Assembly (NCBI GenBank): GCA_021292105.1
Contig: CM037862.1
Location: 7,234,765 to 7,298,764 of the forward strand
Direction of reading: 5' to 3'
From: Anadara kagoshimensis
Lineage: Eukaryota; Mollusca; Bivalvia; Arcoida; Arcidae
Length of the DNA: 64,000 nt
Of this stretch, positions 36 through 28,009 are shown one piece after another. Position numbers and translations under genes: made by a program. The notes under the pieces were generated by a model. That model saw only the letters and a list, made by a program, of their open reading frames with translations. It did no database searches and had not been told where the DNA came from. Each line of letters opens with the position of its first letter. Position 1 is the first letter of the stretch.

Positions 36-2120
36 CTCGTACAATGAAGGCAGAACTGATAAATTTGTCCTTGTATTGTCATCTTTAATCTCCGACATCC
101 AAACTGACATCTTTCTTCCTATTGCAGATGACTGAAAACTATCTGAAAAATAAGGTCATATTACAAAATGTCTTAAATATAGGCCTTGTAATTTTGACTA
201 ATGCTTATTATTTTAGAATCGATATGAACTGATTTTGTTTAAGTCACATTTCTAAAGTGTTTATGATGTTTAAGACAAGGGATGGCAATAACTTTGTAAC
301 AGCAAGAACTATGACAACATGCAATGGAAATTATTATCAAACACATTATAGACACATTTAAGATAAAATGAAATACCAGTGTAAATGGCTTATTAGAAAG
401 AATGTGCTTCCCATAAGTTATGCCAGAAACTTATGGTATATGCTCTTTCTTTCTTTATTTAACAAATGACTTATGAGTCATTAATAAAGCTACCTTTTTA
501 TATTGAAAATAATAGACAGAATTTGTAACGAAAAACGTGTACTTGTCTAAGTAAACAGTCGTCTCTAAGTGAAAGAATAACCAAACAACACAAAACAATA
601 ATAAATACACATATTGAGATCGGGGATACCTTTGAGTGGGTATTTGAGTTAGCATTCAGTGATTTGGTTACAGTACTATTACTGCTCGAATCACCGTGCT
701 AGTTTTAGAGACCGCGGCCTAATGGATAAGACGTCACGGGCTACAAACCCAGGCTTTCTCATCGCTTTGAGTTCGAGGTCCGCTCAGACCACATGTGGGA
801 AAGTAAATTTTCCTTGTCTTTAGCCTTTACTGGTTCACCCGGTGTCAGTGTAATGTAACCCTGGGAGTGGAACGCTTATCTGCGGTGTACTGACTCGATG
901 TTCTAGCACCTTAAAGTCACCCCTGAGTGCGCAATGGTATAAGGCAGACCATAAAACACACACACACTTCACATGCATACACAAATTTGTTGACAGATTA
1001 ATCCATAAAGATTAATAAAATAGTTCTCGTCGCGAATAGCTGAAAATTCGCTGATCCGACGTTAGCAACATTCAACAAATGTGTTTGTTTCCATAGAAAA
1101 CCAATGAACTTGAATGAAGATTTTTGTTTTCGCCTACTTGTACCAAATCGTAACAGGTAATTTCTATGTGCATATGCGATTATCGTATAATATGTCTGCA
1201 CAGAGCTAAACGTTGTCGCTAAGTGTATTTAACATGTTGAAAAAATGAACAGAAAAATGGCAGATCCTGTTGTGTATATGACGTAAACGTAACAAGGACA
1301 TCACTTCCGGTGTAAACATTGCCATTTTCACCATGTAAAATCCCTGTGGAGCCAACATTTTTACTCTACAAAAATACTTCATAACAATCGGGAATGTGCA
1401 TATAGATTGTCAGTTACAACTAGGTACAAGTAACAGCATCAAACATTATTCCAGTTTATTTGAATTTAGAAGGGAAAGTAAGCATCGCTGAATCGGACAG
1501 AAGATGTCAGTTAGTAACTTGCATTGGATTACACTTCAGTCTTGTTTTATTGTCACCACATTAATTTTATTGGTATTGTTTTGTTTCTAGGTTTTGGTAT
1601 ATGTTGCCAAGTGCATGTTTTAGTTACAAAGAGTTATGGCGTATTTGATAGACTTTGTTACACTACCCTCTATTTAAGCCGATGTACATTGTTTCACGGG
1701 AATACTGTACTTTTAAACACCTGGGGATTTCGCGGTCTAAATTAAGACCAAGCCTAGGAACACCATATGCATATATTTAATTTTGGTAAACATTCTTCTC
1801 ACTGGAGGACAAAGGAAATTTTTAAAAAAAGTTTTGCATCCGTAATTAATGTTCATTTTCATCATATATGTGTCGGGGATCTAAAATGACGAATTATGAT
1901 CATGACATGTAGTTTATTATGTGACAAAAAAATGTATTACCTGGCTTTACCTGTTAATACAAACTATGTTTTATAAGGAAGACTATAACATTTTAAAAAA
2001 ATCTAGAAAAAGATAAAATTTAAACAAAAACAAAACGGTTGGATGAAATATGATCAAATCCGTCATGGCTTTTTTTTCTTTAAAAACCAATATAAACGAT
2101 GTAATTATATTGTTTGGGTC

Positions 2121-2164
<44 letters not shown>

Positions 2165-2288
2165 TTTTCGATATAATATAAAAAAAAATACCTTTCACAT
2201 CAAAGAAATATACAAACACTACCATAACCAATCCGACAACACATGTAGATATTAATAATTTATGATTAACTTGTTTTCCGAAAACCAT
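36..2288 (-). CDS. Carbohydrate sulfotransferase paralog A, 5' part only (exons 1 and 2; rest off the left edge)
   Basis: Two coding exons are visible. Exon 1 (2192-2288) starts at the ATG at 2288 and encodes 32 residues: a short basic start (MVFGKQVNHK), then a hydrophobic stretch typical of a type II signal anchor. It ends in phase 1 at a GTATT donor. Exon 2 (36-142) follows a TTTTTCAG acceptor, encodes 36 residues (DSFQSSAIGRKMSVWMSE at its start) and ends in phase 0 at a GTACGAG donor. Both exons match paralog B in sequence, length and phase. The catalytic exon would lie to the left of base 1. The type II Golgi topology and PAPS-dependent transfer to a glycan are inferred from paralogs B and C, whose catalytic domain is visible. 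A shorter or longer N-terminus is unlikely, because all three paralogs start at the same place. A poly-T tract lies directly downstream of exon 1 in the intron. Confidence 0.75.
690..970 (+). repeat. tRNA-derived SINE
   Basis: The 5' part resembles a tRNA: an A-box-like stretch (CTAATGGATAAGACG) and a B-box-like stretch (GAGTTCGAGGTCC) about 45 bases later. A non-tRNA body and a short CA-rich tail (ACACACACAC near 957-967) follow. The spacing and order fit a Pol III SINE. There is no functional tRNA fold. Confidence 0.65.
2123..2162. repeat. Poly-T homopolymer (about 38 bp)
   Basis: An uninterrupted T run lies in intron 1 of paralog A, 30 bases from the exon 1 donor. It could be the poly-A tail of a minus-strand insertion or a simple slippage tract. 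Its exact length is probably unreliable. Confidence 0.9.
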
Positions 2289-2319
2289 AGTTAACAAATA
2301 CCCTTGTTCAATGTTGACC

Positions 2320-2500
2320 AGCCCGTGTGTATTTGATCACATTTTAAAGGCATTGGTTATTTTGGAATAATCTTTTTGAACTTACAACTTTTCTTATTTA
2401 TGATTTTACAACCCGAACGACAAATACATGCTAAATTATACATACTGTTAAGTAGAAAACAAATAAAGTAACAGACGATTCCCAGGGACTTTATATTGTA
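2320..2500 (-). promoter_or_regulatory. Upstream block shared by the sulfotransferase paralogs
   Basis: Sequence upstream of exon 1 of paralog A (for example CCGAACGACAAATACATG near 2412, and AAAGTAACAGACGAT near 2464) has a counterpart upstream of paralog B (CCGAACGACAACAACATG near 10999, and AAAGTAACAGATGAT near 11056). A weaker match lies upstream of C (GCGGACAACGAAAAG near 27453). Order and distance from the ATG are similar. It is either a retained promoter or simply the edge of the duplicated segment; no core promoter element is clear. Confidence 0.4.
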
Positions 2501-2779
2501 TATATTTGTTGACTCTTAAAAATAATAAAGATCGAAAATGAAAATATATTTCGCTTTAAATCCTGCTATGTTTTTATAAGTGATTTTATTTAAGACATTA
2601 TCAAGTTTCAAGTTTCTTTATTTCTCATACTGAATTTTATCAATACAGAGAACATATACATAATAATAAACATAAAACATATGTACAATATAGTGCACAT
2701 GCAGGAAATTATCGTCAGTTAGATAAAGAACTGCTTGGTGTCACCTGATTTTGTCTTTTTGTGTTTACACCCATTTCCA

Positions 2780-3083
2780 ATCAAGTTTCGTTCACTTATA
2801 TCGAGACGTTAAGTTCAGGATTGGTGGAGGAAACCGGAGTGACCAGAGAAAAACTACCAATTTTATAACATTTGGATCTGCTGCGAGTGGGATTCGATCC
2901 TAGGTGGCCAAGTGTTATATGGTCAGTAAGTGTGCGCTTTATACCACTCAGCCACCGAGGTCTTCTTTAGACTTTATAACATTTGGATCTGCTGCGAGTG
3001 GGATTCGATCCTAGGTGGCCAAGTGTTATATGGTCAGTAAGTGTGCGCTTTATACCACTCAGCCACCGAGGTCTTCTTTAGAC
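2780..3083 (-). repeat. tRNA-derived SINE with its head duplicated in tandem
   Basis: Read on the minus strand, the tRNA-like head contains CGGTGGCTGAGTGGTATAAA (A-box region) and GGATCGAATCCCA (B-box region). A body resembling other SINEs in the window follows toward 2780. The head, 111 bp long, is present twice in direct tandem (2862-2972 and 2973-3083) with no difference that I can see, so the duplication is recent or was produced during assembly. Confidence 0.65.
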
Positions 3084-5942: not shown

Positions 5943-7150
5943 CTAAAATGTAAAGTAAACTTTTACGACTCGTATAGAAACGATATAACAATGATAAAAA
6001 CTTTGATGAATCAACATATCAAAAATACTAAAGGACATTAAATACTTTAGTTTCGTACTCTGGCGTGCGCTTATATTAAATAGTTTATCAGGTCTACAAT
6101 CATATCCAAAGAGTTTACAGTCTGGCTCTATTATTTTTTGTAATTTCTGCATATCATCAATCGGTACCATCGAATACGCTTCATGTAAAGCTTCTTGACG
6201 CTGTTGTTTTACTTTCGCATGATCAGTGATTCCTTTTAAAACTTTATTGATTTCATAGAAAAATTCATTTGGTTTAAGAACTTTAGCTTGATCCTCTGTA
6301 AAGGGCATATCCACACTAATCGGGATAATACCCTCATTTGAAGATCCCTCCATGTGCGCCAGAGAGCCGTATGGAACGACATACATTTAACAATACTCTT
6401 TTGCATTCCATAGATTCTCAAGACATGACTTTGTGCAATTTTTGCATCGGACTCTTTTTCAAATTCATTATATTTTATATTTATTCCATATTTTTCATTC
6501 CATATCTTGATCAAATTTTCAGCGTCCTCTTTAAACGTCTCCATTTTACCGATAAAATCATATGAGATTTGACATGGACGACAGTGTTCGTACATTGGTG
6601 TAAAATGACGATCTGTGCGTTTCCGGGTAGTTTCGGAGTTTATTATATATTTAACAAATTCCGGAAATGTAAGATCTTGGCCACAGTCCTTGCTTAACTT
6701 TGAAGCACCTTTGCGAAATAAAGACACGGTATGTCTACCAACGCTATCCCAATACACTGGATTAGCGGCAAACAATTTGTCAATGTATCCCGACAAAACC
6801 CTGCTATATGGCTCGCGAACAAACATGAATTTATATGAATTTTGAATAATAGAGTGTATATCAGTGAAAGTCAGTTTTGTCTTCAGTGTAACAAGCCTTT
6901 CAGTTCCAGGTTTTACACCAAATGCTCCTTTACCTTTTAAACTTACTAATTTTTTTAACAATTCTCGTATAAACGTGGATCCCACTTTCTGTATCTGGCA
7001 GTATAAAAGCTGATGATAACGGTCAATATGTAAATTAAGCATTACTTCATTGTCCTTTGCATCACCATTAAGACCCTCCGAATTGTTGAAACATATTCCT
7101 TTTATATTATTTTTTCGTTCTTCATAAATGCTGGTTTGTGGATATTTGGT
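5943..7150 (-). CDS. Catalytic exon of sulfotransferase paralog B
   Basis: It follows the acceptor GCATTGTAG. The 5'-PAPS binding loop is visible as QIQKVGSTFIRELLKKL (around 6955-7005), and the 3'-phosphate binding segment as FMFVREPYSRVLSGY (around 6785-6830). The family signature HCRPCQISYDFIGKMET lies around 6540-6595. A late segment, IPISVDMPFTEDQAK, continues only after a one-base slip near 6331-6333. These motifs place it in the Sulfotransfer_2 group (CHST8-14-like) rather than the cytosolic sulfotransferases. Residue order and length agree with paralog C throughout. Confidence 0.88.
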
Positions 7151-8995: not shown

Positions 8996-10832
8996 CCAGT
9001 GAACACCAAATCAAATGTTAAAAAATTAGTAATATTTGCTCAACAGTATAAAACTCATACCTCGTACATTAAGGTAGTTGTGTTGATTCGGTTATTGTAT
9101 TGTCACCTTTAATATCCGACATCCAAACTGACATCTTTCTTCCCATTTCTGATGACTTATAAGTCTCTGAAAAATAAGGCCATAAAAAACTAAAAACTAA
9201 TCGATGTCCAAATCACATTCCCAAAGCAATTTATTTTAAATGGAACTGACAGATTAGGTTAAATACGTGACCTTTCATCAGGAAAGTGAGATTGGATGCT
9301 CCGGAGGGGTAAGCACCACCTGTTTGGCTAGATACGTCCGCCATGCGTGTAATCAAAATTAAAATGTCTTAAATGCTATATTTTTACCATTTCACAAATT
9401 TGACCAATTTTTATTCTTTTTAAATGGAAAATCAGGTAAAGGATGTGACACGTGCTAGTTTTTAAATTCATTTAATATATAAAATGCTTCAAAAATTAGC
9501 ACATCTCAGTTTAAATATGACGTCGTCATTATTTATGTTTCTGTCTTTCTACTAATATACAGCATGTCAGATCATGCAACATATTAAGAATACACGTAAA
9601 GCATATTTGCGAATAAATACTGATAAAATTCAATACGTGTCCAGAATTTATAATAGTGTACATGACTTATGAGAACGGATATGGTTCCCACACACCATTG
9701 TAGTTACACTCAGAAAGGTATTGTAGTGCTCGTTTAAGTGGTTTAAAGCTCGGGCTTACGAATCAAAGTGCATCCTCCGACTAGGATCGAATCCCACGCA
9801 GGTAGACCCAACAAATAACTTTGTCAGTCCGTAAACAAAATGTCGGTGGTTTTCTCTAGTAACTTCTATACCTTTCACTATCCCCTGACCGACTCGATAA
9901 CTTTACATATTATACCGGTTTTCATGTCACAGCACTAGACGGTCGTTTCGGAATTCAATTCCTCAACAGTAGTGCTTGAACCGAATTCTGAAACCAAAAT
10001 TTCTTTCAATTGGTTAAAAAATAACGAAAGGACCAAAAATTTGTTACAGAATCTTGACTAGGATGCAAAACACGATCATTGCCTTCGTTCTTTTTTCAAT
10101 ATATGAATAACGATTCATCAGTAAAATCTCCCTTTTGTATTGAAAAAAAAAAAGAAAATACATGTAAACATTTTGTAACAAAGCACATACTAGAAAACAG
10201 CCAGCGTCAAGTAAAACAACAGCAAACGAGATTATAGAACCGAGAAACACATATTGAGATCACTGGTTCGTGGTTACAGTTCAGTTACTACAGCTTATCA
10301 TTGACTTGTTGCCACTACCATTTATATGGATTGTTTCGTGTTCTCGATTACTTAGGTTTTGCCGAGAACATGTTTTTTCTTTTTATTCCAAATCAATATG
10401 AACGTTGTAATTAGAAGATTTTGATTGATCCGATTTAAAGGTAATATTTTTTCGGGTTTTTTTAACTATGACAAAACTAGTTTAAAATTAATATTTTTCT
10501 GCTTTCTATCGTTATAACAAAACTAGAAAAGGTATCATCTAACCAAAAATAATCTCAAAAATGGTTCAGTTATGATACACCCACGATTCATCTTTCTTCA
10601 ATATGAAGATTGTAATAAATAAAATTAAACATACTAGTCCATGCCCGAATCATAATCTCATAATCCAGAACCAACGTGAAATAAGAAAGAGATTAAAAAT
10701 ATTTTTTGTTTTTCAATTTTTATAGCAAAACATACCTTTTACATCAATGAAGAGTCCAATTCCAACCAAAACTAATCCGACAAAACAAGTAGATATTACT
10801 AATTTAGGATTAATACGCCTTCCACAAATCAT
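5943..10832 (-). CDS. Carbohydrate sulfotransferase paralog B (Sulfotransfer_2 family), three exons, frame broken twice
   Basis: Exon 1 (10736-10832) encodes 32 residues: MICGRRINPK, then a hydrophobic signal anchor ending FIDVK, phase 1. Exon 2 (9061-9166) encodes a short stem region (GRKMSVWMSDIKGD is clear) and joins at phase 1. Exon 3 (5943-7150) carries the luminal catalytic domain. The predicted enzyme is a Golgi type II membrane protein moving sulfate from PAPS to a glycan; the acceptor sugar cannot be told. Two single-base problems break the frame as given. Exon 2 is 106 bases where paralog A has 107, near 9070-9074. Exon 3 is one base short at the CCC run near 6331-6333 compared with paralog C. 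The C-terminal tail (after KLKY) is longer than in C because the C stop is not conserved. It may be a young pseudogene or a working gene with consensus errors. It lies head-to-tail between A and C. Confidence 0.8.
7980..8094. mobile_element. Two adjacent copies of a ~58-bp palindromic MITE
   Basis: Copy 1 (7980-8037) begins GTCAAATACCATTTTTT and ends ATTGTATATGAC. Copy 2 (8036-8094) begins ATATACCATTTTTTAATG and ends AAAATGGTATATGAC. Each is nearly its own reverse complement. The same sequence occurs once more at 39032-39085, inside the Harbinger element there. It lies in intron 2 of paralog B. Confidence 0.7.
8359..8437. repeat. 39-bp tandem duplication
   Basis: ATTATCTCATTATCGAGTGA... (8359) is repeated exactly 39 bases later (8398). 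It is intronic and has no coding meaning that I can see. Confidence 0.75.
8959..8992. repeat. (TC)n microsatellite
   Basis: About 17 TC units lie upstream of exon 2 of paralog B, in intron 2 near its 5' end. The length is likely variable. Confidence 0.9.
9225..9345 (+). repeat. Dispersed repeat family D (GGGTAAGCACC...GTTTGGCTAG)
   Basis: The segment GTTAAATACGTG...GGAAAGTGAGA...GGAGGGGTAAGCACC...GTTTGGCTAGATAC recurs with substitutions. Plus copies are at 16285-16400 and 18655-18795; minus copies are at 12170-12345, 19095-19150 and 55355-55500. It has no ORF and no clear tRNA head. It is probably a SINE or MITE body; the class is unresolved. Confidence 0.55.
9735..10010 (+). repeat. tRNA-derived SINE with an attached dispersed block
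   Basis: The head contains GTTTAAGTGGTTTAAAGCTC and the B-box-like GGATCGAATCCCACG; GGTGGTTTTCTCTAG follows in the body. The 3' part (AGCACTAGACGG...AGTAGTGCTTG) is shared with 16450-16570 and 46400-46515. It lies in intron 1 of paralog B. Confidence 0.6.
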
Positions 10833-12575: not shown

Positions 12576-13702
12576 CTAAGGTATATTGAAATACTTGAGT
12601 TTACTCGTACTTTTTTGTGTACTTATATTAAATAGTTTATCAGGTCTACAATCATATCCAAAAAGTTTACAATCTGGCTCTAGTATGATTTGTAATTTCT
12701 GCATATCATCAATCGGTACCATCCCATATGCTTCACGCAAAGCCTCCTCACGTTGTTGTTTTACTTTCGCGTGATCTGTTATTCCTTTTAAAACTTTATT
12801 GATTTCATAGAAAAATTCATTTGGTTTAAGAACTTTAGCTTGATCCTCTGTAAAGGGCATATCCACACTAATCGGGATAATACATCTCATTTGAAGATCC
12901 CTCCATGTGCGCCAGAGAGCCGTATGGAACGACATACACTTAACAATACTCTTTTTCATTCCATATATTCTTTTGACATGATTCTGTGCAATTTTTGTAT
13001 CAGACTCTTTTTCAAATTCATTATATTTTATATGTATTCCATATTGTTCATTCCATATTTTGATCAAATTTTCAGCGTCTTCTTTAAACGTTTCCATTTT
13101 ACCAATGAAATCATATGAAATTTGACACGGCCGACAATGTTCGTACATTGGTGTAAAATGACGATCTGTGTGTTTCCGGGTAGTTTCGGCGTTTATTATA
13201 TATTTTACAAATTCCGGAAATGTAATTTCTTGGCCACAATCCTTGCTTAACTTTGAAGCATTTTTGCGAAATAAAGACACAGTGTATTTGCCAACGAAGT
13301 CCCAATACAATGGATTAGCGGCAAACAATTTGTCAATGTATCCCGACAACACCCTGCTGTATGGGTCGCGAACAAACATGAATTTATATGATTTTATAAT
13401 AGTAGTGTGTAAATCGGTGAAGGTTAGATGGTGCTTTAGTTTTACAAGGTTTTCCGTCCCAGGTGTTACACCGATTATTCCTTTGCTTTTTAACTGTACT
13501 AATTTGTTTAACAACCGTTTTATAAATGTGGATCCTACTTTCTGTATCTGACAGTAAATTAACTGGTGATAACGGTCTATAAGTAAGTTAAAATTTACTT
13601 CAGTGTCTCTAGCGTTGCTATTTAAATCTATTGAATTATTGACACAGGTTTCTTGCAGATGAAGTTTTCTTCTTTATAAACGCTTACCTCTGGTAAATCC
13701 GT
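12576..13702 (-). CDS. Catalytic exon of sulfotransferase paralog C
   Basis: It follows the acceptor AATCTTGTAG. The 5'-PAPS loop reads CQIQKVGSTFIKRLL (around 13510-13555) and the 3'-phosphate segment FMFVRDPYSRVLSGY (around 13340-13385). HCRPCQISYDFIGKMET lies around 13090-13140, then WRTWRDLQMRCIIPISVDM and a C-terminus ending KLKYFNIP. Unlike paralog B, the reading frame is intact from at least 13514 to the stop. This makes it the best reference for the family in this window. The only defect is the one-base shortfall near its 5' end. Confidence 0.92.
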
Positions 13703-16700: not shown

Positions 16701-19700
16701 AACAATTTCAACTAACCCACTCATTCTACTACCCGAAACTCGTCTGAACTAAAAGTAGGTTTTTTTTACCAAGTAAGCATCTTACCTTCATATCCTGAAG
16801 TTTTTTCTCGTGCATAAAAGCTGGTACCGGTTGTATTTCAGAGACATTACTTACTGAAATAAATAACATGTCTATTACCTACCCAATTAACGTATCGCCT
16901 GTAAAAGTATTTAATTTCGCGTGTATTTATTTTCACGTTATAGGAAATTTGGACATATCCGCGTGTTAATCTTCGGCTTTTAAAATATGCACTATAACAC
17001 AATAAGCATAATACATTGCTCGCTCGGTATTAATTTTCGTGGCGAAAACAAACGCGAAATAAGCGAAAATTAGTACACCGCGTTAATAATGTTGAAACAC
17101 GGGGTTCTAAAAAAAAGTTGGACTAGAACCTAGCCCGACTAATCAGCCCACTTAACCCCCATTTTATTGTTTGTCTTTGTAGATTTGTTGGGAGATGGGG
17201 GCTGATTAGTCAGACTAGACTAGAGCCATGAGCATACAATTAAGACTTCCCAAAAGCTGACCATCTCCGGAGATTCTAAAGTATGCAGACGAATGCCAGT
17301 TAAGAGATAACTGTCTTGTAATTTTCGATTTGCAGGCGTATATCGATGGTTATACTGTCGCAAATAAGTTTTATTGGCGACGCGTCGGGCGATGCCCTCG
17401 GGTGACAACCCTTCTGTCGGGTGACAATTCTGGATGTCCACATACCTAGAGGGCAATTATTGTATAATAGTACAGGGGCCGGAGTTCACATGCGGAAGAA
17501 CGCCGCATGTTAACGACGGTCCGTGTATTATTCGACGATATATATACAATTTACTATCTATTTGCAAAAAAGTCCATTCAAACAATTCGGCTGTTGAGAT
17601 TACCTCCATTGAAAAATAAAAGTTGAAATAAACATTGCGAACTCTTTCTTCGGAAGTACAGAACAGCGATGGGTATAACGTTTGTTATAACGAATTTTTT
17701 CAATCTTTTCAATCTTTTTTATCTAAGTCTTGTTAGAATTTAAATGATCAACATTTACCCTTGGTATATCGTTGAATAATACACGGGCCGTCGTTAACAT
17801 GCGGCGAATATATCACTCAGTGGCAAAGCCACCTCGTGATATCTTCTTCCACATGTGAACTCCGGCCCGTGTATTATTCGACGATAAACCATTGGTAGAT
17901 GTTAATTATTTCTTAAATAAATCTTAGAAAATGTTCAGTTTAATTCGATGTAAGCCCCCCCCCCCCCCCAGTCACACAGCCAAAACTTACGATTTACGCA
18001 TGAATTGCGCGAGTCGTGCGCGATTCATCAGTGCTGTGCGTAATTTATGCTTTTCTGACGTGGAGCATAAGTAGTTGTCAGTGGATGTTCGTCGAATCGG
18101 GTTTGTGCACAATTCCATGTTTTGAGCTGCTCAAAATTCTTGATCACACACAATTTATGCGCGATTGTACGCCGTTTAACGTAATTCATGCGTCCTTTGC
18201 CGTAGTTCTAACGCGAACAATGCGCGACATATGCATGGACCGTTAGTGGGTGATCGCAAGTTTACCGCTACCGCGCACGTGGATGACTTTTCAATGACGA
18301 ATAACGCAGATAACACGCATGACTCGCTGTAGTAACACATACATTTCACTGATATCCACTGACAAGATCCAATGCGCTGATGTACGTGATTTGTAAGTGA
18401 TTTGTACGTAGTTCATGCGCAATTAATCGGTGATTTTCGACCACGCACGCCCCCAAAAATGGTCAATTTCTCCACTCACAATCACGCACAAGCTAACATT
18501 ATACGTGATTTATGCGTGAACGGTTGTATGACTGACCCTTTAACTTATATGTCCAAATTACATATATCACAAGTAAAACCTATAATGTTCAGTGGTGTAG
18601 TCCATAATGTCGCTGCAAACTTGGTAACAATTAGCTCAGACTCGCTTTTTTGAACAGTCCAGACACAATCTCAAAACATAGTTAAAACTTTAAAACTGGC
18701 AAATTTAGTAAAACACGTGGACTTCCACTAGGGAAGTGAAACCGGGTCCTTCGGAAGTGTAAGCACACCCTGTTTAGCTAGCTACATCCTCCGCGTCCGA
18801 AATCGGGAATAAAAAGAACATGTTGTGTTTATGTTTGGATAAATTATGAATAATTCCGTAGATAATCATGTTTACCGCTCAAACTGTAAAACCTTCCATG
18901 GAACTATAATTCCCGTCCATTAATTAAAGAGTCCCGATAAACTTCCACAGATCTGTGTTGTAGGTGGTCGGATACGTTTACATACACATAGTAAGTAGAA
19001 AAGGTTGAAATCCATCAATGTTGTTTAAATAACATTGTTATAAGCTCTCAGTCTCATTCTCCTGTTGGTGTTCGCGTGTTTAATTTAATCTGTCAGTTTC
19101 TAAAAGTTTTTACTTTGCTTTGGGATTGTTATTTGGACAAGTATTTGGTAGGTTTGTTTTTTATTTAAACTATTCCAAATGCCACCTGCCTCCAAATAAC
19201 TTCGTCTAAATCACTAATTGGTTAATTAATTTGTCAGTGATTCATGTACTTGAATGCAAAAAAGGATTTTCTTCCTTTGTCACGCATTTCTTTTTATTCG
19301 CTTACTTGGAACTAATGCTACGTTTTGCAAGACACTAAGGTGGTATCGTTACAGTAGCATTTTGCTATGTTGGGTTTTCTCGTTTGCCGAAAAGACCATG
19401 GTGACAAAATATTACAAAATTCTGTTAAGTAACACATCTAATGGCACTTAAAAAAGGTTTAATATGACAATAACGTATAATTTATTTTCTTTCTGTTGAA
19501 TCCCTCTTTTATCCGCATTAAATTGTTGTCCTTGTCGCGAATAGCTGAAATTGTTGATGCGAATTTTACAACCATTACAACTTAAGTATTTTGTATCACG
19601 GTTATTATTTAAATGTGATTTATATATAGCATTCTTATAATATACAATACAGACCTGTCGAAAGTTAATGATAAGCTGAAGAATAAATGTCGAATCATCA

Positions 19701-22700
19701 TCTCGTCTCGGTCTTTCGTTAGCTGTATTTCGGTAGGCAGGTCAGCATTTTAACAGATTCTATTTATCTCACTCGGCAGATTTTTTAGTCACTAGTTATC
19801 CTCGAGTTAAAACTTAGCCTACTTTTCGTTATCTCAGTGTCAAACTTTGCCTACTTTTCGTTATCTTAGTGTCAAACTTTGACTACTTTTCGTTATCTTA
19901 GTGTCAAACTTTGCCTACTTTTCGTTATCTTAGTGTCAAACTTTGCCTACTTTTCGTAATCTCAGTGTCAAACTTTGCCTACTTTTCGTTATCTTAGTGT
20001 CAAACTTTGTCAAACTTTGCCTACTTTTCGTTATGTCAGTGTCAAACTTTGCCTACTTTTCGTTATCTTAGTGTCAAACTTTGCCTACTTTTCGTTATCT
20101 CAGTGTCAAAATTTGCCTACTTTTCGTTATCTCAGTGTCAAACTTAGCCTAATTTTCGTTATCTCAGTGTCAAACTTTGCCTACTTTTCGTTATCTTAGT
20201 GTCAAACTTTGACTACTTTTCGTTATCTTAGTGTCAAACTTTGCCTACTTTTCGTTATCTTAGTGTCAAACTTTGCCTACTTTTCGTTATCTCAGTGTCA
20301 AACTTTGCCTACTTTTCGTTATCTTATTGTCAAACTTTGCCTTCTTTTCGTTATCTTAGTGTCAAACTTTGACTACTTTTCGTCATCTTAGTGTCAAACT
20401 TTGCCTACTTTTCGTTATCTCAGTGTCAAAATTTGCCTACTTTTCGTTATCTTAGTGTCAAACTTTGCCTACTTTTCGTTATCTCAGTGTCAAACTTTGC
20501 CTACTTTTCGTTATCTTAGTGTCAAACTTTGCCTACTTTTCGTTATCTCAGTGTCAAACTTTGACTACTTTTCGTTATCTCAGTGTCAAACTTTGCCTAC
20601 TTTTCGTTATCTCAGTGTCAAACTTTGCCTACTTTTCGTTATCTTAGTGTCAAACTTTGCCTACTTTTCGTTATCTTAGTGTCAAACTTTGCCTACTTTT
20701 CGTTATCTCAGTGTCAAACTTTGCCTACTTTTCGTTATCTTAGTGTCAAACTTTGCCTACGTTTCGTTATCTCAGTGTCAAACTTTGACTACTTTTCGTT
20801 ATCTCAGTGTCAAACTTTCCCTACTTTTCGTTATCTCAGTGTCAAACTTTGACTACTTTTCGTTATCTCAGTGTCAAACTTTGCCTACTTTTCGTTATCT
20901 CAGTGTCAAACTTTGCCTACTTTTCGTTATCTTAGTGTCAAACTTTGACTACTTTTCGTTATCTTAGTGTCAAACTTTGCCTACTTTTCGTTATCTCAGT
21001 GTCAAACTTTGCCTACTTTTCGTTATCTTAGTGTCAAACTTTGCCTACTTTTCGTTATCTCAGTGTCAAAATTTGACTACTTTTCGTTATCTCAGTGTCA
21101 AACTTTGCCTACTTTTCGTTATCTCAGTGTCAAACTTTGCCTACTTTTCGTTATCTCAGTGTCAAACTTTGCCTACTTTTCGTTATCTCAGTGTCAAACT
21201 TTGACTACTTTTCGTTATCTTAGTGTCAAACTTTGCCTACTTTTCGTTATCTCAGTGTCAAACTTTGCCTACTTTTCGTTATCTTAGTGTCAAACTTTGC
21301 CTACTTTTCGTTATCTCAGTGTCAAACTTTGACTACTTTTCGTTATCTCAGTGTCAAACTTTGCCTACTTTTCGTTATCTTAGTGTCAAACTTTGCTTAC
21401 TTTTCGTTATCTTAGTGTCAAACTTTGACTACATTTCGTTATCTCAGTGTCAAACTTTGACTATTTCGTTATCTCAGTGTCAAACTTTGCCTACTTTTCG
21501 TTATCTCAGTGTCAAACTTTGCTTACTTTTCGTTATCTCAGTGTCAAACTTTGCCTACTTTTCGTTATCTTAGTGTCAAACTTTGCTTACTTTTCGTAAT
21601 CTTAGTGTCAAACTTTGCCTACTTTTCGTTATCTTAGTGTCAAACTTTGCCTACTTTTCGTTATCTTAGTGTCAAGCTTTGACTACTTTTCGTTATCTCA
21701 GTGTCAAACTTTGACTACTTTTCGTTATCTTAGTGTCAAACTTTGACTACTTTTCGTAATCTTAGTGTCAAACTTTGCCTACTTTTGGTTATCTTAGTGT
21801 CAAACTTTGACTTCTTTTTGTTATCTTAGTGTCAAACTTTGACTACTTTTCGTTATCTTAGTGTCGAACTTTGACTACTTTTCGTTATCTTAGTGTCAAA
21901 CTTTGACTACTTTTCGTTATCTTAGTGTCAAACTTTGCCTACTTTTCGTAATCTTAGTGTCAAACTTTGCCTACTTTTGGTTATCTTAGTGTCAAACCTT
22001 GCCTACTTTTCGTTATCTTAGTGTCAAACTTTGACTACTTTTCGTTATCTCAGTGTCAAACTTTGCCTACTTTTCGTTATCTTAGTGTCAAACTTTGACT
22101 ACTTTTCGTTATCTTAGTGTCAAACTTTGCCTACTTTTCGTTATCTTAGTGTCAAACTTTGTCAAACTTTGCCTACTTTTCGTTATCTTAGTGTCAAACT
22201 TTGCCTACTTTTCGTTATCTTAGTGTCAAACTTTGCCTACTTTTCGTTATCTTAGTGTCAAACTTTGCCTACTTTTCGTTATCTTAGTGTCAAACTTTGC
22301 CTACTTTTCGTTATCTCAGTGTCAAACTTTGCCTACTTTTCGTTATCTTAGTGTCAAACTTTGACTACTTTTCGTTATCTCAGTGTCAAACTTTGCCTAC
22401 TTTTCGTTATCTTAGTGTCAAACTTTGTCTACTTTTCGTTATCTTAGTGTCAAACTTTGTCAAACTTTGCCTACTTTTCGTTATCTTAGTGTCACACTTT
22501 GCTTACTTTTCGTTATCTTAGTGTCAAACTTTGCCTACTTTTCGTTATCTTAGTGTCAAACTTTGACTACTTTTCGTTATCTCAGTGTCAAACTTTGCCT
22601 ACTTTTCGTTATCTTAGTGTCAAACTTTGCCTACTTTTCATTATCTTCGTGTCAAACTTTGACTACTTTTCGTTATCTTAGTGTCAAACTTTGCCTACTT

Positions 22701-25700
22701 TTCGTTATCTTAGTGTCAAACTTTGACTACTTTTCGTTATCTCAGTGTCAAACTTTGCCTACTTTTCGTTATGTCAGTGTCAAACTTTGACTACTTTTCG
22801 TTATCTCAGTGTCAAACTTTGACTACTTTTCGTTATCTCAGTGTCAAACTTTGCCTACTTTTCGTTATCTTAGTGTCAAACTTTGCTTACTTTTCGTTAT
22901 CTTAGTGTCAAACTTTGACTACTTTTCGTTATCTCAGTGTCAAACTTTGCCTACTTTTCGTTATCTCAGTGTCAAACTTTGCTTACTTTTCGTTATTTTA
23001 GTGTCAAACTTTGCCTACTTTTCGTTATCTCAGCGTCAAACTTTGCCTACTTTTCGTTATCTCAGTGTCAACTACTTTTCGTTATTTTAGTGTCAAACTT
23101 TGCCTACTTTTCGTTATCTCAGTGTCAAACTTTGCCTACTTTTCGTTATCTTAGTGTCAAACTTTGCTTACTTTTCGTAATCTTAGTGTCAAACTTTGCC
23201 TACTTTTCGTTATCTTAGTGTCAAACTTTGCCTACTTTTCGTTATCTTAGTGTCAAGCTTTGACTACTTTTCGTTATCTCAGTGTCAAACTTTGACTACT
23301 TTTCGTTATCTTAGTGTCAAACTTTGCCTACTTTTCGTAATCTTAGTGTCAAACTTTGCCTACTTTTCGTAATCTTAGTGTCAAACTTTGACTACTTTTC
23401 GTTATCTTAGTGTCGAACTTTGACTACTTTTCGTTATCTCAGTGTCAAACTTTGACTACTTTTCGTTATCTCAGTGTCAAACTTTGCCTACTTTTCGTTA
23501 TCTTAGTGTCAAACTTTGCTTACTTTTCGTTATCTTAGTGTCAAACTTTGACTACATTTCGTTATCTCAGTGTCAAACTTTGACTACTTTTCGTTATCTC
23601 AGTGTCAAACTTTGCCTACTTTTCGTTATCTCAGTGTCAAACTTTGCTTACTTTTCGTTATCTCAGTGTCAAACTTTGCCTACTTTTCGTTATCTTAGTG
23701 TCAAACTTTGCTTACTTTTCGTAATCTTAGTGTCAAACTTTGCCTACTTTTCGTTATCTTAGTGTCAAACTTTGCCTACTTTTCGTTATCTTAGTGTCAA
23801 GCTTTGACTACTTTTCGTTATCTCAGTGTCAAACTTTGACTACTTTTCGTTATCTTAGTGTCAAACTTTGACTACTTTTCGTAATCTTAGTGTCAAACTT
23901 TGCCTACTTTTGGTTATCTTAGTGTCAAACTTTGACTTCTTTTTGTTATCTTAGTGTCAAACTTTGACTACTTTTCGTTATCTTAGTGTCGAACTTTGAC
24001 TACTTTTCGTTATCTTAGTGTCAAACTTTGACTACTTTTCGTTATCTTAGTGTCAAACTTTGCCTACTTTTCGTAATCTTAGTGTCAAACTTTGCCTACT
24101 TTTGGTTATCTTAGTGTCAAACCTTGCCTACTTTTCGTTATCTTAGTGTCAAACTTTGACTACTTTTCGTTATCTCAGTGTCAAACTTTGCCTACTTTTC
24201 GTTATCTTAGTGTCAAACTTTGACTACTTTTCGTTATCTTAGTGTCAAACTTTGCCTACTTTTCGTTATCTTAGTGTCAAACTTTGTCAAACTTTGCCTA
24301 CTTTTCGTTATCTTAGTGTCAAACTTTGCCTACTTTTCGTTATCTTAGTGTCAAACTTTGCCTACTTTTCGTTATCTTAGTGTCAAACTTTGCCTACTTT
24401 TCGTTATCTTAGTGTCAAACTTTGCCTACTTTTCGTTATCTCAGTGTCAAACTTTGCCTACTTTTCGTTATCTTAGTGTCAAACTTTGACTACTTTTCGT
24501 TATCTCAGTGTCAAACTTTGCCTACTTTTCGTTATCTTAGTGTCAAACTTTGTCTACTTTTCGTTATCTTAGTGTCAAACTTTGTCAAACTTTGCCTACT
24601 TTTCGTTATCTTAGTGTCACACTTTGCTTACTTTTCGTTATCTTAGTGTCAAACTTTGCCTACTTTTCGTTATCTTAGTGTCAAACTTTGACTACTTTTC
24701 GTTATCTCAGTGTCAAACTTTGCCTACTTTTCGTTATCTTAGTGTCAAACTTTGCCTACTTTTCATTATCTTCGTGTCAAACTTTGACTACTTTTCGTTA
24801 TCTTAGTGTCAAACTTTGCCTACTTTTCGTTATCTTAGTGTCAAACTTTGACTACTTTTCGTTATCTCAGTGTCAAACTTTGCCTACTTTTCGTTATGTC
24901 AGTGTCAAACTTTGACTACTTTTCGTTATCTCAGTGTCAAACTTTGACTACTTTTCGTTATCTCAGTGTCAAACTTTGCCTACTTTTCGTTATCTTAGTG
25001 TCAAACTTTGCTTACTTTTCGTTATCTTAGTGTCAAACTTTGACTACTTTTCGTTATCTCAGTGTCAAACTTTGCCTACTTTTCGTTATCTCAGTGTCAA
25101 ACTTTGCTTACTTTTCGTTATTTTAGTGTCAAACTTTGCCTACTTTTCGTTATCTCAGCGTCAAACTTTGCCTACTTTTCGTTATCTCAGTGTCAACTAC
25201 TTTTCGTTATTTTAGTGTCAAACTTTGCCTACTTTTCGTTATCTCAGTGTCAAACTTTGCCTACTTTTCGTTATCTTAATGTCAAACTTTGCTTACTTTT
25301 CGTAATCTTAGTGTCAAACTTTGCCTACTTTTCGTTATCTTAGTGTCAAACTTTGCCTACTTTTCGTTATCTTAGTGTCAAGCTTTGACTACTTTTCGTT
25401 ATCTCAGTGTCAAACTTTGACTACTTTTCGTTATCTTAGTGTCAAACTTTGCCTACTTTTCGTAATCTTAGTGTCAAACTTTGCCTACTTTTCGTAATCT
25501 TAGTGTCAAACTTTGACTACTTTTCGTTATCTTAGTGTCGAACTTTGACTACTTTTCGTTATCTTAGTGTCGAACTTTGACTACTTTTCGTTATCTTAGT
25601 GTCAAACTTTGACTACTTTTCGTTATCTTAGTGTCAAACTTTGCCTACTTTTCGTAATCTTAGTGTCAAACTTTGCCTACTTTTGGTTATCTTAGTGTCA

Positions 25701-27225
25701 AACTTTGACTTCTTTTTGTTATCTCAGTGTCAAACTTTGACTACTTTTCGTTATCTTAGTGTCAAACTTTGCCTACTTTTCGTTATCTTAGTGTCAAACT
25801 TTGTCAAACTTTGCCTACTTTTCGTTATCTTAGTGTCAAACTTTGCCTCCTTTTCGTTATCTTAGTGTCAAACTTTGCCTACTTTTCGTTATCTCAGTGT
25901 CAAACTTTGCCTACTTTTCGTTATCTTAGTGTCAAACTTTGCCTACTTTTCGTTATCTTAGTGTCAAACTTTGCCTACTTTTCGTTATCTCAGTGTCAAA
26001 CTTTGCCTACTTTTCGTTATCTTAGTGTCAAACTTTGTCTACTTTTCGTTATCTTAGTGTCAAACTTTGTCAAACTTTGCCTACTTTTCGTTATCTTAGT
26101 GTCAAATTTTGCTTACTTTTCGTTATCTTAGTGTCAGACTTTGCCTACTTTTCGTTATCTTAGTGTCAAACTTTGACTACTTTTCGTTATCTCAGTGTCA
26201 AACTTTGACTACTTTTGGTTATCTCAGTGTCAAACTTTGCCTACTTTTCGTTATCTTAGTCAAACTTTGCCTACTTTTCGTTATCTCAGTGTCAAACTTT
26301 GACTACTTTTCGTTATCTCAGTGTCAAACTTTGACTACTTTTCGTTATCTCAGTGTCAAACTTTGCCTACTTTTCGTTATCTTAGTGTCAAACTTTGCCT
26401 ACTTTTCGTTATCTTAGTGTCAAACTTTGACTACTTTTCGTTATCTCAGTGTCAAACTTTGACTACTTTTCGTTATCTCAGTGTCAAACTTTGACTACTT
26501 TTCGTTATCTCAGTGTCAAACTTTGCCTACTTTTCGTTATCTTAGTGTCAAACTTTGCCTACTTTTCGTTATCTTCGTGTCAAACTTTGCCTACTTTTCG
26601 TTATCTTAGTGTCAAACTTTGACTACTTTTCGTTATCTCAGTGTCAAACTTTGCCTACTTTTCGTTATCTTAGTGTCAAACTTTCGACAAGTCTGTACTG
26701 TATGTCTAAATGATGAGTTAATAAATAAACTTTTTAAACATATAAAATCTCGGTATTAAAGTCACATACTGTAAACATTGCCAGATTTTCCGCGAGAGGA
26801 AATGTTCGCGAAATCGTATTGTTGGCATTTCGCGAGGAGGTTATTTTTGCGATGTTACCCAATCCTGTTTCACTTACAAAGTATTATCTTAATTCGCGAG
26901 AAGGTTATTTTCGCGATGTTATCCGTTCCTGTTTCAATGACGGGGTCTTATCTTAATTCGTGAGTGGGGTAATTTTCGCGTGATTTTTTACAATTCACGA
27001 AAATATCCATCACGCGAAAAACGTTTACAGTATTTAACACGTAGTTTTAATTTATAGACAGTTAAATAAAAATAACTCAAGAATCTCTGAGTCTGTTTTA
27101 AAACAAAATGTTCAAAGTTACATACCTTTAAGATAAGAGAACGATAAAAACACTACCAATAGCAATGCATGTATAAAAACAGTAAATATTACAAATTGAG
27201 GATTAATGCGTCTTCTGGTGGTCAT
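12576..27225 (-). CDS. Carbohydrate sulfotransferase paralog C (Sulfotransfer_2 family), three exons with giant introns
   Basis: Exon 1 (27126-27225) encodes 33 residues: MTTRRRINPQFV, then a strongly hydrophobic signal anchor ending FSYLK, phase 1. Exon 2 (16786-16853) is bounded by TTTATTTCAG and GTAAGATGC and encodes 23 residues of stem (VSNVSEIQPVPAFMHEKK), phase 1 to phase 0. Exon 3 (12576-13702) carries the catalytic domain and ends at a TAA/TGA-type stop at 12576. The total is about 430 residues, usual for Golgi carbohydrate sulfotransferases. Exon 3 lacks one base in the T run at 13665-13668; with it the frame is open from acceptor to stop. Intron 1 contains the 6.9-kb 32-bp array, and intron 2 a pearl-like element and an inverted-repeat cluster. 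The acceptor sugar is unknown. Exon 2 is the least certain part: it is short and was found by splice signals, phase and position. Confidence 0.8.
13970..14785 (+). mobile_element. Pearl-like nonautonomous element, copy 1 (short, 3' end lost)
   Basis: It begins AACAAGAGACCCATTGGGCC, then TGCTCACCTAATTAATAATG. About 1.5 units of the ~145-bp core follow (CATCAAAATGATCATTGTAT, CTATACAATAAAAGTTTATAG), then the family's 3' part (AAAACGCGTAACTTATTTTT, CACGAAATGAACAAAC) and an ACGC/ACGCGCGC tract. The terminal AGGTGAGCTAAAA seen in the other two copies is absent. It lies in intron 2 of paralog C, just upstream of the catalytic exon. Confidence 0.7.
14812..15925. repeat. Foldback cluster with ~310-bp inverted arms and a third direct copy
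   Basis: A spacer unit U (CAAAGAAATTTCTCG...TTAACTTGCCGGGGTACAT) occurs at about 14812, 15179 and 15548. The arm at 14867-15178 is the near-perfect reverse complement of 15234-15547, and 15600-15925 repeats the latter directly. Each arm holds its own inner inverted repeats (GGGGTACATGGGACCGTGTA and its complement). The arms could fold into very long hairpins. Diverged fragments of the same sequence lie at 30758-30824 and 36318-36389 in CDC123 introns, so it is a dispersed family. Confidence 0.85.
16285..16570 (+). repeat. Dispersed repeat families D and E, adjacent copies
   Basis: GGTAAACACGTGATGTGATG and CCGGAAGGGTAAGCACC (family D) are followed by ACTAGACGG...CCTCATCAGTAGTGCTTGG...AAAGATGTTGAAAAGA (family E), which recurs at 9940-10010 and 46400-46515. 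These sit in intron 1 of paralog C, about 200 bases upstream of exon 2 on the minus strand's downstream side. Confidence 0.55.
16890..17095. mobile_element. Probable MITE rich in TTCGCG/CGCGAA
   Basis: TTTAATTTCGCGTGTATTTA on one side and CAAACGCGAAATAAGCG on the other give partial inverted symmetry. It resembles, at lower similarity, the element at 26766-27034. The ends are not certain. Confidence 0.4.
17117..17226. mobile_element. Small MITE with ~29-bp inverted ends
   Basis: GGACTAGAACCTAGCCCGAC...TAATCAGCCC at the left pairs with GGGGCTGATTAGTCAGACTA...GACTAGAG at the right, spacing about 50 bases. It is intronic. Confidence 0.6.
17455..17545. mobile_element. Foldback element, copy lacking its centre
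   Basis: GGCCGGAGTTCACATGCGGA, CGCCGCATGTTAACGACGG and GTGTATTATTCGACGATATA are the reverse complement of the copy at 17766-17887. That copy additionally has a ~35-bp hairpin in the middle. Confidence 0.65.
17766..17887. mobile_element. Foldback/MITE with 23-bp terminal inverted repeats and a central hairpin
   Basis: TATCGTTGAATAATACACGG at 17766 pairs with the complement of CCGTGTATTATTCGACGATA ending at 17886, one mismatch in 20. The centre (ATATCACTCAGTGGC...GCCACCTCGTGATAT) forms a second hairpin. It has no coding capacity. Confidence 0.7.
17969..18534. mobile_element. Putative DNA transposon remnant of unusual composition
   Basis: The ends CAGTCACACAGCC (17969) and GGTTGTATGACTG (18522-18534) are inverted repeats with 11 of 13 matches. 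The inside is much richer in CG and in variants of ATTTATGCGTGA/ATTCATGCG than its surroundings. Two modest open frames on the plus strand show no recognised domain. A C homopolymer directly abuts the left end. Confidence 0.4.
18655..19150. repeat. Dispersed repeat family D, plus copy and partial minus copy
   Basis: The plus copy at 18655-18795 has AAAACACGTGGACTTCCACT, TCGGAAGTGTAAGCACACCC and GTTTAGCTAGCTAC. A partial minus copy at 19095-19150 has CTGTCAGTTTCTAAAAGTTT and GATTGTTATTTGGACAAG. Nothing else was recognised between them. Confidence 0.5.
19641..26704. mobile_element. 26-bp inverted repeats bracketing the 32-bp array (possible host transposon)
   Basis: TACAATACAGACCTGTCGAA...AGTT at 19641-19666 and the reverse complement of 26679-26704 (TACAGTACAGACTTGTCGAA...AGTT) agree at 23 of 26 positions. 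The left repeat is separated from the array by ~135 bp of non-repetitive sequence; the right one begins inside the last monomer. This would fit a nonautonomous DNA element whose interior expanded. No target-site duplication or transposase is visible, so the element status is inferred. Confidence 0.45.
19805..26684 (+). repeat. Giant minisatellite: ~215 copies of a 32-bp monomer with higher-order duplication
   Basis: The consensus monomer is CCTACTTTTCGTTATCTTAG plus TGTCAAACTTTG. Monomers differ mainly at two places: GCCTAC/GACTAC and CTTAG/CTCAG. Rarer variants are CGTAATC, TTGGTTATC, GTCGAAC, GCTTAC, and an 11-bp internal duplication (TGTCAAACTTTGTCAAACTT). Rare variants recur 2,125 bp apart (for example GTGTCACACTTTG at 22489 and 24614), so 21300-23422 and 23423-25550 are tandem copies of a 2.12-kb block, with a third partial copy after 25560. 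It lies wholly in intron 1 of sulfotransferase paralog C. The long frames across it are a by-product of the period, not genes. Confidence 0.95.
26766..27034. mobile_element. MITE with ACTGTAAAC ends
   Basis: CATACTGTAAACATTGCCAG at the left is mirrored by CACGCGAAAAACGTTTACAG at the right (about 10 bp of good terminal pairing). The inside contains two direct copies of TTCGCGAGRAGGTTATTTT. It abuts the array flank and lies about 90 bp downstream of exon 1 of paralog C. Confidence 0.55.
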
Positions 27226-27659
27226 AGTTGTAGAATGATGCACTTTTCTCTAAGTTTTAGTGGTGTCGTCACTTCCGTTACGGCATAGATTTACGTTGAA
27301 CCTGCGTCACCCGTGATTCTTAAGCTTGCGGTAAGACGATGTACATACAGTATAAACCCTTACTATTGTGTATTCACACGTTATACTTTGTATATAATTT
27401 AATTATACCGGTTGTATTCGTGTCTATTTTAATTCAATAAAATTTTTACAAAGCGGACAACGAAAAGATTAAGTGATATAATGTCATCATAAGCTCATTA
27501 CAATTAACTTATGATATATATTGATGTGATTTTTGAGGAAGTAACTGAAGATATATAATAATATCTGAATAGAAATAAAACTTAGTATCACAATATTATT
27601 AGAAGGAATGTCATAATTTATAAAGTATAATGAAATTATTCTGCAAAACACATCGAGCG

Positions 27660-28009
27660 TCTCCAGCATGATACACCAATTAGGCTGGATGTCTCTTCAA
27701 CATCGACGTAAGAACGCCAGACTAACCATGATGTACAAAATAGATAGAGGACTTGATGCCATTAGCAAAATGAACAGACTGTTGCCACTTAGAAGACTCG
27801 GGCGCACAACCCATGCCAAGTCACTTAAGTTCCTGACCTGTCGAACCGATACCAGGAAGACGTCCTTCTTCCCATGGTCAGTGCGGGACTGGAATGCCTT
27901 GTCTCCAGACATCGTACATGCAGATACACTACAGGACTTCCGTTTTCTAGCAGTGTCTAGTGTCCAAACTCTTTTAATTCCTAACTATTTTAAAATTTTA
28001 ACCTTGTAG
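27660..28009 (+). pseudogene. Non-LTR retrotransposon (LINE) reverse transcriptase, C-terminal fragment
   Basis: The frame encodes LGWMSLQHRRKNARLTMMYK, then SFFPWSVRDWNALSPDIV. This is the characteristic tail of reverse transcriptase proteins of jockey/CR1-type LINEs (pattern W-x-SL-x-RR...ARL-x-M-x-YK and FFP-x-x-x-RDWN-x-L). Only about 110 residues remain; the polymerase core and endonuclease are missing, so it is a 5'-truncated dead copy. It lies between sulfotransferase C and CDC123. Confidence 0.8.

Follow-up and report, generated by a model that had tools for sequence, protein, structure and literature searches.

The window, a stretch of 64,000 nucleotides of the Anadara kagoshimensis genome (contig CM037862.1, positions 7,234,765 to 7,298,764), carries minus-strand sulfotransferase gene copies in tandem, with two domain exons in the window. 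In one of these genes, a predicted first coding exon of 100 bp with a GT donor (27126 to 27225, minus strand), membrane-anchor-like by eye, precedes a predicted exon 2 (12576 to 13651, minus strand) with an AG acceptor in matching phase that encodes the sulfotransferase domain (Pfam match reported as Sulfotransfer_2, PF03567, 5.5e-41). Joining the two exons in frame gave an open protein of 391 residues, in agreement with the original prediction that the repeat block described below lies within intron 1 of a sulfotransferase gene, although the intron itself is predicted from the sequence. This predicted intron is 13.5 kb long, and an element of 7,056 bp fills about half of it. The first exon of a third sulfotransferase copy was located by similarity at 2188 to 2269. 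The parts of the cluster are found at 2188 to 2269, 6236 to 7150, 10702 to 10822, 12576 to 13684, and 27126 to 27225; its first exons are separate and look membrane-anchor-like, and the size of intron 1 is very different among the copies.

TRF detected an array with a period of 32 bp at positions 19810 to 26684 (plus strand; 213.2 copies, 92% matches). Ungapped segmentation of the same interval gave 209 full units of 40 types that deviate by 3.4% on average from the consensus, AAACTTTGCCTACTTTTCGTTATCTTAGTGTC. The array of about 215 monomers of 32 bp that had been announced from the sequence is therefore present at close to that size. The chief variant letters are A at position 9 (66 of the 209 units) and C at position 26 (78 of 209). 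Interspersed among the full units are seven of 42 bp, lengthened by 10 bp (AAACTTTGTC) that duplicate a portion of the unit, as well as four irregular segments that measure 25 or 30 bp each. Two stretches within the array (21464 to 25564 overall), offset by 2125 bp, are nearly identical, with 1 mismatch in 1976 bp between 21464 to 23439 and 23589 to 25564. This internal duplication is either a recent event or an effect of the assembly.

Three array units did not fold better than shuffled sequences, and neither did the left arm of the element. The AA/TT phasing of the unit at 10.67 bp was within the range of shuffled units (0.147). A search of viral contigs gave 0 matches with the 32-bp unit and 3 matches with the 19-base terminus of the element, all three in one identical unrelated context, and Rfam returned nothing above the gathering score for the window. 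Other repeats in the window include a 64-bp repeat (2.4 copies, 26829 to 26980) immediately beyond the element and two arrays, at 42980 to 44383 (9.7 copies) and 56031 to 56538 (3.5 copies), whose 145-bp units are alike by eye; the first of these had no match with the consensus of the MITE family described below. On the plus strand, an open frame of 130 residues at 27617 to 28009, which has no Pfam match, resembles by eye the end of a non-LTR reverse transcriptase.

The array lies between two terminal inverted repeats, CAATACAGACCTGTCGAAAGTT on the plus strand at 19645 to 19666 and CAGTACAGACTTGTCGAAAGTT on the minus strand at 26679 to 26700, which differ by 2 mismatches of 22. The exact ends of the element are 19645 and 26700, giving the total length of 7,056 bp with the ends included. 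Inverted 26-bp brackets matching at 23 of 26 positions had been predicted at 19641 to 26704; the match was recovered, but the ends were found to lie slightly inside these positions. The best 26-base inverted match between the flanks scored 23, versus a maximum of 21 (3/300) among 300 random pairs of window segments. With up to 3 mismatches, the two brackets are the only places in the window where the 19-base terminal core is present, the average for shuffles being 0.08. The left arm (19645 to 19809, plus strand) aligns with approximately the left two-thirds of a 217-bp family consensus, and the left terminus differs from the family end by 1 mismatch. On the other side, the inner AACTTT of the right terminal inverted repeat overlaps the final partial unit of the array. 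The dinucleotide TA stands immediately beyond each terminus, at 19643 to 19644 and at 26701 to 26702, and the two are presumed to be the copies of a target-site duplication. The frequency of TA across the window is 0.093, and, the flank being AT-rich, the TA flanks are weak evidence for this one insertion taken alone.

A genome-wide search for TA followed by the terminal 28-mer, with up to 2 mismatches, gave 20,353 forward and 19,983 reverse matches (40,336 in all), versus 0 and 0 for the reversed-pattern control. Because every copy contributes two ends, these matches suggest on the order of ten thousand copies, minus the contribution of tandem arrays. A search with the left arm gave 45 matches from 147 candidates (40 scored), distributed over many contigs. 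Thirty fetched loci contained 100 distinct family ends at up to 5 mismatches, 92 of them preceded by TA (116 of 128 if overlapping loci enter more than once); leaving aside the window, its duplicate, and seven tandem-array loci, five of which are one region of contig C1, the TA-flanked ends were 50 of 56. We identified 27 distinct inverted pairs of termini within 600 bp, of which 22 had TA on both sides. The 23 pairs of up to 300 bp provided the 217-bp consensus, in which the inverted repeats agree at 40 of 42 positions; the four longer pairs were dropped. The sister copies are elements of about 217 bp with terminal inverted repeats of about 40 bp and a TA target, and they are devoid of the array. 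This combination of a short element, terminal inverted repeats, many copies, and a constant target-site duplication (TA) identifies the family as a MITE, and the window copy, a MITE that holds a tandem array and has both ends present, corresponds to a MITE-borne satellite. These results support the proposed growth of the array within a mobile element and answer the search that had been suggested for it, the bracket sequence being present many thousandfold elsewhere in the genome, mostly TA-flanked, in elements of about 217 bp that lack the array. The alignment of an empty site, which had been proposed for finding a target duplication, yielded none: the introns of the neighboring sulfotransferase genes offered no alignable empty site, and the duplicate of the locus on contig C6 likewise carries the insertion.

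Tc1/mariner elements have a TA target and ends that start with CAGT or a similar sequence. The MITE family combines the TA target with CAGT-like ends. Transposase genes of the Tc1/mariner type are numerous in the genome, a search for DDE_3 producing 150 scored matches from 1547 candidates. Twelve of these 150 loci were examined, and none had the MITE end (CAGTACAGACCTGTCG) paired on both sides; in 5 of the 12, the inverted ends start with TA-CAGT, with CACT on one arm in one of the five. Locus L071 on contig C4, in which a terminus with 2 mismatches stands beside a DDE_3 gene, was considered as the autonomous partner and rejected, its own ends, TA-GGTCGCGCACG, being different. The transposase element of L071 has a TA within a MITE copy as its insertion site, and the right arm of this copy continues in locus L075. 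The nested arrangement lies at L071 642-734 and 3992 to L075 (C4:44,986,141 to about 44,989,620).

The consensus right arm of the family reads GAGCTTCGACTCCTTTTCGTTAGCTCAGTGTT and then AAACTTTCGACAGGTCTGTACTG. Its first 32 bases match the array unit at 24 of 32 positions without gaps and at 26 of 32 for the variant with A at position 9 and C at position 26; these chief array variants are the letters of the MITE family consensus. The motif AAACTTTCGACARGTCTGTACTG follows both the unit and the 32-bp consensus stretch before the inner terminus. When every rotation on either strand is considered, the unit reaches 27 of 32 at best, compared to a maximum of 21 both in 100 shuffled units and in 100 random 32-mers of the window. 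Comparison with individual copies gave ungapped matches of at least 19 of 32 in 13 of the 23 copies and of 3 to 14 in the other 10, which by eye are mostly shifted by indels. Comparison of the unit with the left arm and the 1-kb flanks in the window revealed nothing above shuffles, and its origin is therefore visible only through the sister copies. The junction pattern, allowing up to 7 mismatches, was found at 6 places in 38 loci, some of which overlap (186,644 bases, containing 132 matches to the terminus); by eye, each of the 6 is a single-copy arm. Genome-wide, a junction 28-mer with up to 3 mismatches had 397 forward and 60 reverse matches (457 in total; control, 0), of which 207 and 156 fall in the arrays of the window and the duplicate and 94 elsewhere; the latter may be single-copy arms, as at locus L050, or true dimers. 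The 32-bp unit is the element's own right arm, present as a single copy in the sisters inspected, and not captured DNA. In the family consensus, from which they were read rather than from the ancestor of the window copy, the direct repeats CTTCGAC and CTTTCGAC are 32 to 33 bp apart in the right arm and are a likely slippage seed.

A genome search with a dimer of the unit led to 5 candidate regions, all of which were scored, with 171 matches. All the dimer matches listed were in the window element or at C6:10,021,070-10,025,997, a second locus on the same contig, 2.77 Mb from the window. The same array between unrelated flanks, named in the original prediction as the contrary outcome, was not seen among these matches. 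A classical satellite forms long arrays at many loci; the listed dimer matches place this one only at the locus and its duplicate. The region from about -10 kb to 59.8 kb in window coordinates is collinear, with gaps, with C6:9,988,647-10,056,325 over approximately 70 kb, mostly in blocks of 92 to 97% identity, some being lower. Outside the array, blocks of more than 1 kb differ by 1.4 to 7.6% substitutions between the two loci, a range that omits matches between different gene copies (12 to 14%). The second locus is accordingly a segmental duplication or an uncollapsed haplotype, not an independent insertion, and this collinearity bears on any copy count at the locus. The duplicate element is 5,173 bp long, and its termini are letter for letter those of the window. 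Its array comprises 154 units of 20 types, only 6 of which are common to the 40 types of the window. Since the termini are identical but the variants mostly unshared, the array is being rewritten faster than its flanks.

We therefore consider it very probable that the block is a single insertion of an abundant nonautonomous MITE, with an array grown from its own right arm, and have weighed this reading against three other origins. A minisatellite could by chance lie between two tRNA-derived SINEs in inverted orientation, whose 3′ tails would then be the termini. A 157-bp repeat at locus L013 does link the terminal sequence to a sequence that looks tRNA-like by eye, and longer family copies at loci L041 and L051 hold inserts of similar appearance. 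However, neither the window nor L013 contains a tRNA according to ARAGORN, and the sole Rfam tRNA match in positions 500 to 8600 of L013 has a score below gathering and lies outside these elements. The tRNA-like parts are consistent with SINEs that entered certain copies or became joined to them, and chance bracketing accounts poorly for 27 inverted pairs within 600 bp of which 23 are 300 bp or shorter and 22 have TA on both sides, making this origin extremely improbable. A Helentron or HINE element, the type by which tandem repeats of oysters are usually carried, deserves no more credence. In the account given of such elements (PMC7492417), which are common in Crassostrea gigas, two short sequences in inverted orientation enclose tandem repeats at the center, as seen here, but the inverted repeats of our family are terminal, about 40 bp long, and flanked by TA. 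Moreover, the similarity among family members begins at the inverted repeat rather than outside a subterminal one, the left arm has no adjoining microsatellite by eye, and no palindrome was seen by eye. Capture of a preexisting 32-bp minisatellite by the MITE, as for miDNA4 of Xenopus, has in its favor that it is the model published for a comparable MITE, as related in PMC12628747. It is nevertheless very unlikely here, since the unit aligns in place with the right arm of the family, adjoining the terminus; a single unit is found in the right arm of the consensus and of 13 of 23 sister copies; and the dimer matches listed lie only in the two copies of the window locus.

A further explanation concerns the assembly and is compatible with insertion and growth of a MITE: the length of the array, or the second locus, may in part be the product of a mis-join or an uncollapsed haplotype. 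We regard this as a substantial possibility, albeit the less probable one, because the internal array copies differ by only 1 mismatch in 1976 bp and the collinear similarity extends over most of the window with a divergence that is possible for alleles. The element, its ends, and the origin of the unit would be unaffected, and the 6 types common to the sets of 40 and 20 imply that neither array is a simple copy of the other.

The insertion of a MITE with subsequent growth of its right arm could have proceeded as follows. A MITE of about 217 bp, with a TA target and Tc1/mariner-like ends, would have inserted into the sulfotransferase intron. After insertion, or already in the source copy, the 32 bp of the right arm that reach to the inner part of the terminal repeat would have been duplicated, replication slippage or misaligned repair between CTTCGAC and CTTTCGAC, 32 to 33 bp apart, presumably setting the period. 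Once two units were present, unequal exchange and slippage could have expanded the array to about 210 units and continued to homogenize it, both termini being retained throughout. We infer that slippage came first and unequal exchange later and that the array lacks a host function. Ongoing homogenization is suggested by the internal duplication at an offset of 2125 bp and by the small share of variants that the duplicate has in common with the window. The stage at which a satellite has its first two units is usually lost; here, sister elements in this genome still show the unit as a single copy, one locus that has retained both ends shows it after growth, and the duplicate locus displays the speed of rewriting.

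Other members of the family also carry arrays. Six of them, picked by eye as MITE-like, were compared with the consensus, at loci L013 (157 bp), L027 (103 bp), L037 (48 bp), L043 (134 bp, composed of 60 and 74 bp), L044 (32 bp), and L048 (140 bp). Together with the window array, 7 of 7 scored above 200 shuffles, versus 0 of 8 control arrays, with the proviso that selecting loci for their similarity to the arm may favor such arrays. Among 19 unpicked TRF arrays from the fetched loci, which partly overlap the six, three beat all 200 shuffles (L037, 48 bp; L043, 74 bp; and L044, 32 bp) and 16 did not. The score of L044 relative to shuffles was 28 versus 25 in the first comparison and 32 versus 23 in the second. 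Among 100 listed exact matches to the terminus, 55 were in four clusters with spacings of approximately 43, 97, 51, and 82 bp, by a hand count that covers the first 35.5 Mb of C1. At locus L062 (C1:824,418-827,447), the terminal repeat forms a foldback-like double array at positions 213 to 3014: 53 termini, recurring every 43 bp, all point the same way, and beyond a short core remnant at least 11 more point the opposite way. The repeat of L013 (725 to 1524, 5 copies of 157 bp) joins the MITE terminus to a sequence that is tRNA-like by eye and looks like a MITE/SINE composite that has turned tandem. The family could be a general maker of minisatellites, in which short direct repeats at fixed spacings in the arms give rise to varied periods, an idea that we hold only tentatively and rate somewhat below an even chance. 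The periods observed (32, 43, 48, 51, 60/74, 82, 97, 103, 140, and 157 bp) might then, with the same reserve, be predictable from how far apart microhomologies stand in the consensus, and the window array would conceivably offer the clearest seed. Because one family holds arrays of many periods, a purely computational test is possible of whether microhomology spacing determines the length of the unit.

Satellites born in MITEs are on record: the reviews in PMC12628747 and PMC9659126 mention Xstir, miDNA4 (a Tc1/mariner MITE), Tetris, and bivalve cases of the Pearl and Helitron types. In mollusks, satellites within nonautonomous transposons are documented, as had been stated at the outset, mainly for Helitron and Helentron types in the accounts cited (PMC5139131, PMC8268682, PMC7492417, PMC11136912). 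A search for published sequence strings, in a collection from which subscription journals are mostly absent and which does not extend to Repbase, found unit strings only in two papers, unrelated by title, no printed match to the terminus, and no description of the family. One of the systems most similar to the window element is miDNA4, a Xenopus Tc1/mariner MITE with an internal satellite (Scalvenzi and Pollet 2014, via PMC12628747 and PMC9659126). As summarized in PMC12628747, it shares with the window element the TA-target superfamily, the internal array, and the variable copy number; capture of a preexisting repeat was proposed for miDNA4, whereas the window unit is the right arm of the element itself. 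Xstir, the tandem repeats of a Xenopus MITE with the terminal inverted repeat as their source (Hikosaka and Kawahara 2004; PMC12628747; PMC9659126, Table 1), resembles the window array in stemming from the interior of a MITE. The model reported for it in PMC12628747 involves two neighboring elements and a stem-loop; here, direct repeats 32 to 33 bp apart in one arm suffice. In Tetris, a foldback transposon of Drosophila virilis with satellite blocks in its terminal inverted repeats (PMC4079207; PMC9659126, Table 1), the satellite units likewise come from terminal inverted repeats. Relative to Tetris, the window array differs in involving one arm and a 32-bp unit, and the two-orientation terminus arrays of L062 are closer.

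Cg_HINE and Helentron elements are, like the window element, nonautonomous mollusk elements with satellite-like arrays (PMC7492417, PMC8268682), but they are described as being of the rolling-circle type, with subterminal repeats and units mostly of 140 to 180 bp (PMC7492417). In C. gigas, the longest element-associated array reported in PMC7492417 and PMC8268682 has 89 units, and arrays of that satellite with more than 100 units are mostly stand-alone. At about 165 bp per unit, the 89 units amount arithmetically to about 15 kb, versus 209 units of 32 bp in the window and 154 in its duplicate, both ends being kept. The window array thus exceeds the oyster element-bound arrays reported in these sources in unit number, not in bases. 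The suggestion that such an array may be undescribed does not hold for its kind, which is well documented; its novelty lies in the fact that the origin of the unit can be read, in how many units are present between two retained ends, and in the variety of arrays within a single family.
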